A stretch of DNA of 64,000 nt, taken from contig JAGBHC010000046.1 in NCBI GenBank assembly GCA_017935625.1, positions 1 through 64,000 of the forward strand, written 5' to 3'. A program made the translations under genes and the position numbers. Below, piece after piece: positions 27,944 through 44,485 of this stretch. The notes under the pieces were generated by a model, which saw nothing but the letters and a program-made list of their open reading frames with translations, did not search any database and had not been told where the DNA came from. The first letter of the stretch is position 1, and each line of letters starts with the position of its first letter. This DNA is from Rikenellaceae bacterium (GTDB taxonomy: Bacteria; Bacteroidota; Bacteroidia; Bacteroidales; Rikenellaceae).

Positions 27944-28465
27944 CTACAAATCGACGAGCGGATAGAACCCGATTACGCAGTCGGCCCGGTCGTGTACGTT
28001 GTATACCTCGACGCCTCCATTGAATTCGAAATATTTTCCGTCCCTGGAGAAAATCAGGTCGTAACGGTAGGCTCCGGCCCACTGCGAACCGCTCTTCCTG
28101 ACATATTTCTTATCGACGGCATACTGTTGCAGCTTTTCGATTGTCAGTTCGCTGCGGCTGCGATGATAGTCCGATACGTCGTAGACGGCATCCGCATATT
28201 TCAGGACTCCTTTCACGCATTGCTCCAGGTAATCGAAACTCTGTTTGTGATTTTCGGTTTCGAAAGTGAAGAACCGGCCGTTGTCGTCGGCTCCGTCCGG
28301 ATAGATGCCGGAGAATTTCAGAAAACGTTGGGGCTGTTTGAGATACGGAGCTCCGCACTCTTCCCAGCCGGTTTCATTCCAGCCCGGGATTTCCTTTTCG
28401 CTGTGGCAGGCTGTCAGAACGGAGACAGCTGCGGCCGCAAGGGCAATCAATAGAACTTTCTTCAT
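27944..28465 (-). CDS. Hypothetical lipoprotein
   Basis: A 173-residue lipoprotein (signal MKKVLLIALAAAAVSVLTAC, Cys20). The mature part is rich in aromatic residues and ends GGVEVYNVHDRADCVIGFY. I do not recognise it. It heads the minus-strand lipoprotein group; the promoter would lie in the 337-base region upstream, which also contains a structured element and AT-rich boxes. Confidence 0.72.
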   Translation of the reverse strand: MKKVLLIALAAAAVSVLTACHSEKEIPGWNETGWEECGAPYLKQPQRFLKFSGIYPDGADDNGRFFTFETENHKQSFDYLEQCVKGVLKYADAVYDVSDYHRSRSELTIEKLQQYAVDKKYVRKSGSQWAGAYRYDLIFSRDGKYFEFNGGVEVYNVHDRADCVIGFYPLVDL

Positions 28466-28532
28466 GGTTTCAGGTTCTCTGTCTTGTCCCTCGGCAGAGT
28501 CGGTTTAACGGGTTAAAAAAGACGTGGGACAA

Positions 28533-28690
28533 TACCTTTATCCGTCTCTGAGGTCTTCGACTACCTGCCTAACAAATAAATGAGTAAAGCCCACGTTCAA
28601 CGTGAGCGTTTACGCCTTACTCTTGTTAGGTCTTGAAAGTGTCGAAGTTTCAGAGACAAGAATAAAAGCTAACGCTTTCTCTTTTTATAT
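28533..28690 (+). ncRNA. Structured intergenic element, candidate small RNA or dispersed repeat
   Basis: Nested stems stack in order: GTCTCTGA (28544-28551) with TCAGAGAC (28650-28657); CTTCGAC (28555-28561) with GTCGAAG (28641-28647); CCTAACAA (28568-28575) with TTGTTAGG (28623-28630); GAGTAA (28582-28587) with TTACTC (28617-28622); and an apical CACG/CGTG hairpin. On the plus strand a box TACCTTTA lies just before the first stem, and an AAAGC/GCTTT hairpin followed by CTCTTTTTAT ends it, like an intrinsic terminator. An 18-codon ORF lies inside. The strand is inferred from those flanks. Identity is not known to me; no transposase is nearby. Confidence 0.55.
28580..28636 (+). CDS. 18-codon ORF inside the structured element
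   Basis: ATG to TGA encoding MSKAHVQRERLRLTLVRS, spanning the apical part of the hairpin. It may simply be a chance reading of the folded element; the basic, Arg-rich peptide has no recognised domain and no ribosome site is apparent. Listed because the frame is exactly contained by the stems. Confidence 0.2.
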   Translation: MSKAHVQRERLRLTLVRS

Positions 28691-28763
28691 TTGAAGATTC
28701 GTTTATGCCATTATGATTCCTTATAAATGTCGTATTTTTTACAAATATACGAATTATACTTCA

Positions 28764-43085: not shown

Positions 43086-43176
43086 TGGCGGAGAGAAGGG
43101 GATTCGAACCCCTGAAACCCTTTAGAGGTTTACACGCTTTCCAGGCGTGCCAGTTCAACCACTCCTGCATCTCTCC
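43086..43176 (-). tRNA. tRNA-Ser(GGA)
   Basis: A 91-base serine tRNA including an encoded CCA. Acceptor GGAGAGA pairs with TCTCTCC; the anticodon loop is CTGGAAA in CCTGGAAAGCG; the T-loop reads GGGGTTCGAATCCCC; the long variable arm (CCTCTAAAGGG) is typical for Ser. Its upstream promoter is described separately. Confidence 0.96.
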
Positions 43177-44412: not shown

Positions 44413-44485
44413 GCGGAAATAGCTCAGTTGGTAGAGCATTAGCTTCCCAAGCTAAGGGTCGCGGGTTCGAGTCCCGTTTTCCGCT
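44413..44485 (+). tRNA. tRNA-Gly(CCC)
   Basis: A 73-base tRNA. Acceptor GCGGAAA pairs with TTTCCGC and the discriminator is T; the anticodon loop reads TTCCCAA inside TAGC/GCTA, giving anticodon CCC. The T-loop is GCGGGTTCGAGTCCCGT. CCA is not encoded. Other glycine tRNAs must lie elsewhere. Confidence 0.94.

Follow-up and report, generated by a model that had tools for sequence, protein, structure and literature searches.

Positions 28749–28465 on the minus strand of the 64-kb stretch of DNA analysed here (the window) very probably form a multi-part 5′ leader RNA in front of a predicted lipoprotein gene, one copy of a module-like family of leader RNAs in Bacteroidota of gut and environmental origin (Table 1). 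The best explanation of the observations as a whole, which we hold to be somewhat probable, is a new family of cis-acting leader RNAs with a translational mechanism.

Fold, strand and anatomy of the element

The element is flanked by a divergent gene pair, consisting of the lipoprotein gene (27944–28465, minus strand) and a gene of the GH88 family (PF07470; 28803–29969, plus strand). A sequence-only reading had described nested stems around an apical hairpin at 28533–28690, and these are indeed present as stems of 8, 7, 8 and 6 bp in the correct order, with an MFE of −52.8 kcal/mol on the plus strand (z = −6.95) and −58.5 kcal/mol on the minus strand (z = −7.39), none of 200 shuffles folding as low on either strand. 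The true extent of the element is approximately 28515–28689, with further 5′ and 3′ parts lying outside that description; the leader is about 165 nt long, and the start codon of the lipoprotein gene follows about 50 nt further on.

Table 1 Predicted features of the leader in the window, in transcript order
Feature	Sequence	Position	Strand	Basis or remark
Putative promoter −7 box	TATATTTG	28742..28749	−	direct match to TAnnTTTG
Tiny uORF	ATGGCATAA (ATG GCA TAA, Met-Ala-stop)	28703..28711	−	read directly
Closing helix P0, 5′ strand	UAUAAAAAGAGAAAGCGU	28672..28689	−	complementary to U-run/ACG at 3′ end
Conserved segment preceding P1	GCGUUAGCUUUUAUUCUUG	28657..28675	−	homologue alignment
Rod of helices P1–P5		28544..28657	−	covariation, 104 homologues
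P1		28650-28657/28544-28551	−	
P2		28641-28647/28555-28561	−	
P3		28623-28630/28568-28575	−	
P4		28617-28622/28582-28587	−	
P5		28600-28606/28590-28596	−	
P5 3′ strand	ACGUGGG	28590..28596	−	nearly invariant; also complementary to 28522-28528 (CCCACGU)
3′ strand	UUGUCCCACGU	28522-28532	−	pairs with P6 loop
U-run after 3′ strand	CUUUUUU	28515-28521	−	
Hairpin P6	CUCUGCCGAGGGACAAGACAGAG, stem CUCUG/CAGAG	28477..28499	−	direct; stem covaries
P6 loop	GGGACAA	28484-28490	−	complementary to UUGUCCC 28526-28532
Predicted lipoprotein gene, 173 aa	MKKVLLIALAAAAVSVLTAC...	27944..28465	−	ORF; start 50 nt past U-run

Across 104 homologues, 33 of the 37 pairs in the five nested helices show changes on both sides, and 94.4% of cells in P1–P5 are paired, a percentage inflated by the fitting of this alignment to the structure. 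The covariation score of 0.627, compared with 0.179 in shuffled data, was reached in none of 500 shuffles, and when partners were slid out of register it came to at most about 0.07. An earlier MAFFT alignment, not fitted to the structure, showed double changes in 21 of 28 predicted pairs. The pairing of the closing helix P0 also exceeds permutations (z = −5.5; distal P0b alone, z = −4.4; 0 of 5000 permutations), and the unpaired motifs AAAC, AGGU, GACCUC and GCGUUAGCUU are highly conserved beside the covarying helices. The structured RNA suggested by the sequence-only reading is thus borne out by low folding energy and strong covariation, the compensatory changes that it proposed to look for being massive. 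An integron attC site, suggested by GCCTAAC...GTTAGGC, was considered and dropped, because P3 varies freely by compensatory pairs and so has no fixed core.

We used two covariance models, R1 built from 12 minus-strand copies, including that of the window, and R2 built from independent public contigs, the window copy being outside its training loci. The window copy, with its nested covarying rod and the conserved CGUGGGC in P5, scores 178 bits with R1 and 164 bits with R2, whereas R1 gives the plus strand 23 bits. Among paired cells of the structure-guided alignments read on the minus strand, G·U outnumbers A·C by 4.7–5.3 to 1; a plus-strand reading would invert this ratio, and the asymmetry therefore indicates selection as a minus-strand RNA. 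At almost all homologous loci, the gene whose start codon is near the element sits on the strand opposite to that first assigned. Judged on sequence, the functional RNA is the minus strand, and the plus-strand orientation of the earlier description was wrong.

Distribution and genes behind the leader

A blastn search finds one copy of the element in its own genome and detects it in 19 of 61 genomes of relatives (its own included), with 68–93% identity in the others and a best match in another genus that spans approximately 28514 to 28688. The R2 model finds two copies in the window genome, of 164 and 118 bits, and detects the leader in 55 of 148 genomes of the order, with a maximum of 18 copies in one genome. 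Of 61 genomes of the family, 53 contain the leader according to R1, which at E ≤ 1e-6 also finds it in 83 of 247 genomes of the order (75 of 207 good-quality genomes; 67 of 174 genera); across the phylum, R1 recovers it from 30 of 296 genomes, the majority belonging to the same class. A scan of public genomes gave at least 120 stretches; among the matches listed, all are from Bacteroidota except one recorded only as 'uncultured bacterium', and they include Alistipes, Prevotella, Paraprevotella clara, Tannerella, Dysgonomonadaceae, Odoribacter, Sphingobacterium and Pedobacter. Laboratory strains with members of the family include Alistipes sp. dk3624 and Paraprevotella clara YIT 11840. The scan pattern, which was built on the GCGUUAGCUUUUAUUCUUG segment and whose listed matches comprise only Bacteroidota or unnamed-bacterium records, had no match in viral contigs, and blastn of the window copy gave none in plasmids and a single weak 28-nt match in phages; no carriage by phage, plasmid or virus was found in these searches.

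Two copies in this genome and hundreds elsewhere, with covariation, are far from the single unique copy without compensatory changes that the sequence-only reading had named as counting against it, and its impression of dispersal in Bacteroidales is borne out. Its suggestion of a mobile non-coding repeat stands as regards dispersal but mostly falls as regards a free-standing element, the RNA being a 5′ leader at a fixed short distance from a gene.

Of 152 copies having a downstream ORF, 99 have its start 40–79 nt past the U-run. ORFs starting 30–130 nt downstream are signal-peptide-like in 103 of 120 cases (86%), compared with 26% of the remaining ORFs of these loci, and carry a lipobox in 41 of 120 (34%), compared with a background of 6%, these calls being made by simple hydrophobicity and lipobox rules in place of a trained predictor, and the background ORFs including some non-genes. 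Domains in the sampled genes include BACON, Big_2, BspA leucine-rich repeats, TIG, fn3, OmpA and an outer-membrane barrel, and the window lipoprotein itself has no Pfam family. A common downstream function was rejected, since the Pfam domains are diverse and the genes have only a signal peptide or export in common. The other 17 of the 120 ORFs lack a signal-peptide-like N-terminus, so the preference for export is strong without being a rule; the exceptions include a C39-type ABC exporter, DarT-like and PD-(D/E)XK proteins and methyltransferases. At locus L178 (2653–3720) the leader precedes a DarT-like ADP-ribosyltransferase, and at L126 (4276–7212) a C39-peptidase ABC exporter.

Elements sharing at least 80% identity form 255 pairs, and in 238 of these the ORFs that follow are non-homologous. 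A single orthologue of the window lipoprotein was found (L233, 51% identity); it is without the leader, its locus being too divergent to reveal a precise empty site. Since near-identical leaders precede unrelated genes, we conclude that the leader spreads as a module.

Several loci depart from this arrangement. L094 (G073:C193, 410–1475) holds four divergent tandem copies at about 298-bp spacing, each unit having a promoter (TAnnTTTG) and a local hairpin (CGUGG...CCACG-U) as terminator, and these look like stand-alone sRNA-like units. L234, L235, L237, L244, L246 and L248–L252 come from other orders of the class and form a subgroup in which the rod is directly preceded by a conserved promoter, TTTGCGAtTCTTC, and several of them have a paralogous 408–424-aa gene (MNYFSFYKEGKALYCLFL...) about 226–276 nt downstream; this is possibly a second class of the leader family. 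Many copies lie 200–550 bp from contig ends (G206:C5:383-546, G206:C6:385-550 and several contigs of G052, G139 and G233), and because some point into genes that break the assembly, the leader may stand before surface-protein genes that are repetitive or multicopy. The 8-kb Paraprevotella clara locus L113 also contains, elsewhere, a TPP riboswitch (1546–1638).

Downstream pairings and the tiny upstream ORF

In the window copy, a hairpin loop with GGGAC ahead of the gene is the pairing partner of the 3′ strand GUCCCACG, UUGUCCC at 28526–28532 matching GGGACAA at 28484–28490 inside the P6 stem. The partner motif usually lies 19–34 nt after the 3′ strand that precedes the U-run, a median of 30 nt ahead of the start codon. 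In 180 non-redundant copies, own duplexes average −10.2 kcal/mol, compared with −8.6 kcal/mol for permuted downstream sequences (z = −12.5, 0 of 10000), and the same test on the 110 copies without GUCCC gives z = −8.4; permutation leaves some effect of relatedness in these values, against which the variant-only test is the best guard here. Strand and partner change together in L058 (AGUACCGC/ACGGUACA), L084 (AAACCCA/AGGGUUG), L012 (UUGGCCCA/UGGGCCAA) and L020 (CGGAGUCCAC/AGUGGACUCCG), and the P6 stem covaries in its own right (z = −9.0, 0 of 10000). A strong GGGAC partner is missing at the expected place in 60 of the 180 copies. No convincing P6 partner is seen in L003 (G028:C43), a copy 93% identical to the window element that precedes an OmpA-domain gene; here CCATAGGC, on the downstream side, complements the uORF surroundings GCCTATGG, and L003 is possibly a recently acquired copy.

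The same 3′ strand has other potential partners. CGUGGGC of the P5 3′ strand, one of the least variable stretches of the RNA, complements CCCACG of the 3′ strand more strongly than permutations do (z = −9.1), and the closing helix P0 uses the ACG and U-run of the 3′ end. CCC/ACG can join the P0, the P5-strand or the P6 pairing, but never all at once, which gives a switch-like layout, and we infer that the leader may switch between these pairings.

Upstream of the rod, we searched for a G[CG][CU]UAUG motif in the 182 copies with 130 nt or more of sequence upstream, and observed a conserved GCCUAUG-type motif in 76. An in-frame stop follows the AUG of the motif within 3 codons in 67 of these and within 7 codons in all 76, the two alternative frames having a stop within 3 codons in 7 and 21 of the 76. 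There are 48 distinct uORF sequences; 16 copies are a bare AUG-stop (AUG-UAG or AUG-UAA), and others include AUG-GCA-UAA, AUG-AAA-CAU-UAG and AUG-AAG-AAA-UGA. TAnnTTTG is the −7 promoter consensus of Bacteroidota, and this box is found upstream of the motif in 53 of the 76 homologues, compared with 3.7 expected from shuffles, mostly 31–45 nt before the uORF AUG and with A-rich sequence ahead of the AUG. In the window copy, a candidate promoter of the leader, the box TATATTTG, sits about 30 nt upstream of the main-clade tiny uORF ATGGCATAA (28711–28703). The uORF frame, the upstream box and the A-rich lead-in make translation of the uORF likely. In the divergent copies that represent other orders of the class, no uORF motif is evident; the uORF is thus a trait of the main clade and no part of the family's core.

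Proposed mechanism, alternatives and relation to known RNAs

We tentatively propose that the leader exerts cis-acting translational control of the exported protein. A ribosome would load on the minimal uORF and terminate 20–40 nt ahead of P0, P0 and the rod would hold the uORF stop beside the main start region, and the GUCCC–GGGAC pseudoknot would fix the segment directly upstream of the main start codon. Since the P5 strand CGUGGG is a second possible partner of GUCCCACG and P0 takes the ACG and U-run, the leader could switch between open and closed states. Sequence comparison itself establishes the spacing, the bias towards exported proteins, the frame of the uORF and the pairings. A more specific version, in which a ribosome that has started and stopped on a minimal AUG-(x)-stop ORF would be passed over the closed rod to the start of the exported protein, gated by the pseudoknot, in a module passed between unrelated Bacteroidota surface-protein genes, is speculative and by our reckoning improbable.

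The main rival, because the U-run is conserved, is transcription attenuation, which we regard as possible but doubtful. In this model, an intrinsic terminator would have CCCACG and the U-run as its 3′ arm and either the P5 strand CGUGGG or the P0 A-run as its 5′ arm, and the antiterminator would be P5 or the GUCCC–GGGAC pairing. In 134 of the 169 copies scored, at least five U stand in a row no more than 8 nt from CACG, which is in line with this model, as are the covariation between the P5 strand and CCCACG and the local CGUGG...CCACG-U hairpin of the divergent L094 copies; however, a proper local terminator hairpin or 5′ arm is seen only in those tandem units, and the P5 strand is more than 50 nt distant, with strands of P1–P4 intervening. 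The longest T run is moreover only 2 in 22 of the 169 copies (for example CACGCTTCGTATTTTT), and P0 pairing can account for the conserved U.

A riboswitch-like element, whose internal loops UGAAAC / GACCUCA would bind a metabolite or protein and thereby drive the P5/pseudoknot switch, appears unlikely to us. Mutually exclusive pairings and the conserved unpaired motifs beside covarying helices suit such a sensor, but the downstream genes share no pathway and point to no single metabolite, as would seldom be the case for metabolite riboswitches; an RNA-binding protein or an envelope signal common to the genes fits the leader better than a metabolite does. We give as little credence to an sRNA, stand-alone or derived from the leader, that would act in trans with the U-run as its 3′ end and the downstream gene merely as host. 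The four L094 units with their own promoters and terminators would be explained, as would the divergent copies in which the next gene is more than 200 nt away, and the multicopy sRNA FopS of Bacteroides provides a precedent (PMC11697453); against it stand the tight 40–79 nt distance to start codons, the exported-gene bias and a 3′ end that pairs with the mRNA directly ahead of the ORF.

Still less probable is a MITE-like mobile DNA element with inverted-repeat ends and structure at the DNA level. The P0 ends are inverted repeats, near-identical copies precede unrelated genes, and the element is missing before the L233 orthologue; yet the G·U/A·C asymmetry indicates selection on RNA of one strand, orientation and spacing to genes are fixed, the element pairs with sequence outside the block, and the viral-contig, plasmid and phage searches gave nothing beyond the weak 28-nt match. 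A retron or group II intron-like RNA, considered for the inverted-repeat ends, was rejected on inspection of the neighbours, which are diverse exported-protein genes with nothing to suggest an associated enzyme. The plus-strand sRNA, or repeat encoding an 18-aa Arg-rich peptide, put forward by the sequence-only reading is largely refuted and highly improbable, for although the 18-codon ORF MSKAHVQRERLRLTLVRS exists and hairpins are legible on both strands, its ATG is retained in only 8 of 29 homologues with a frame that shifts among copies, and both the 23-bit plus-strand score and the G·U/A·C test contradict it.

The cis-acting leader that we prefer has no counterpart in Rfam 15, in which no covariance model at its gathering threshold overlaps the element in the window (best sub-threshold score 16.6 bits, against a threshold of 128 bits) or any of 18 divergent loci of the family. 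The sole Rfam matches in the window are two tRNA genes, at 43089–43176 (minus strand) and 44413–44485 (plus strand). Riboswitch and attenuator leaders such as TPP and T-box are likewise cis-acting 5′ leaders with covarying helices and exclusive pairings near a start codon or U-run; unlike them, the present family has a tiny uORF and precedes unrelated exported-protein genes with no common pathway. In the ribosome-shunting leaders of plant pararetroviruses, a very short uORF ends before a long stable rod and the main ORF comes right after. The layout of uORF, rod and ORF is similar here, with no sequence relation claimed, but our family is bacterial and adds a pseudoknot and a switch pairing. 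Shunting by these viral leaders is the subject of a review (PMC5902531). A minimal uORF, AUGUAA, is also found in the 5′ leader of Arabidopsis NIP5;1 (PMC11915504), where, as here, a stop directly follows AUG, whereas our family is bacterial and most of its copies have 1–2 sense codons before the stop.

FopS and GibS, multicopy sRNAs of Bacteroides thetaiotaomicron (PMC11697453), resemble the family as multicopy Bacteroidota RNAs linked to outer-membrane protein genes. FopS has a single-stranded 5′ R1 seed followed by a terminator hairpin, acts in trans and is reported to have its structure deposited in Rfam (PMC11697453); it is without the rod, the uORF and the cis spacing to a gene, and we rejected membership on this difference in anatomy and on the absence of an Rfam match for the element. 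The HMP2 study computed 3161 structured RNA candidates, several of them from Bacteroidetes (PMC8040213), and among the main-text examples compared, none matches the leader anatomy; a fragment of the family may be among the 3161. We found no description of the family in the open literature searched. As far as comparison with Rfam and that literature shows, the leader family is new, its kind being that of a structured leader RNA, and what is unusual is that a start-stop uORF and a long rod occur together with a pseudoknot reaching the start region, in a leader that has spread promiscuously ahead of surface-protein genes.

Bacteroidota hardly use Shine-Dalgarno sequences, and translation control in this phylum is poorly understood. 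Of the order's sampled genomes of good quality, about one third carry the leader, which reaches as many as 18 copies in a genome and stands before genes for adhesins, outer-membrane proteins and BACON/Ig-like lipoproteins; such a leader would be a general switch for the make-up of the gut-bacterial cell surface. The conserved AUG-stop uORF makes bacterial start-stop regulation directly testable, and the leader module could serve as a part for expression control.
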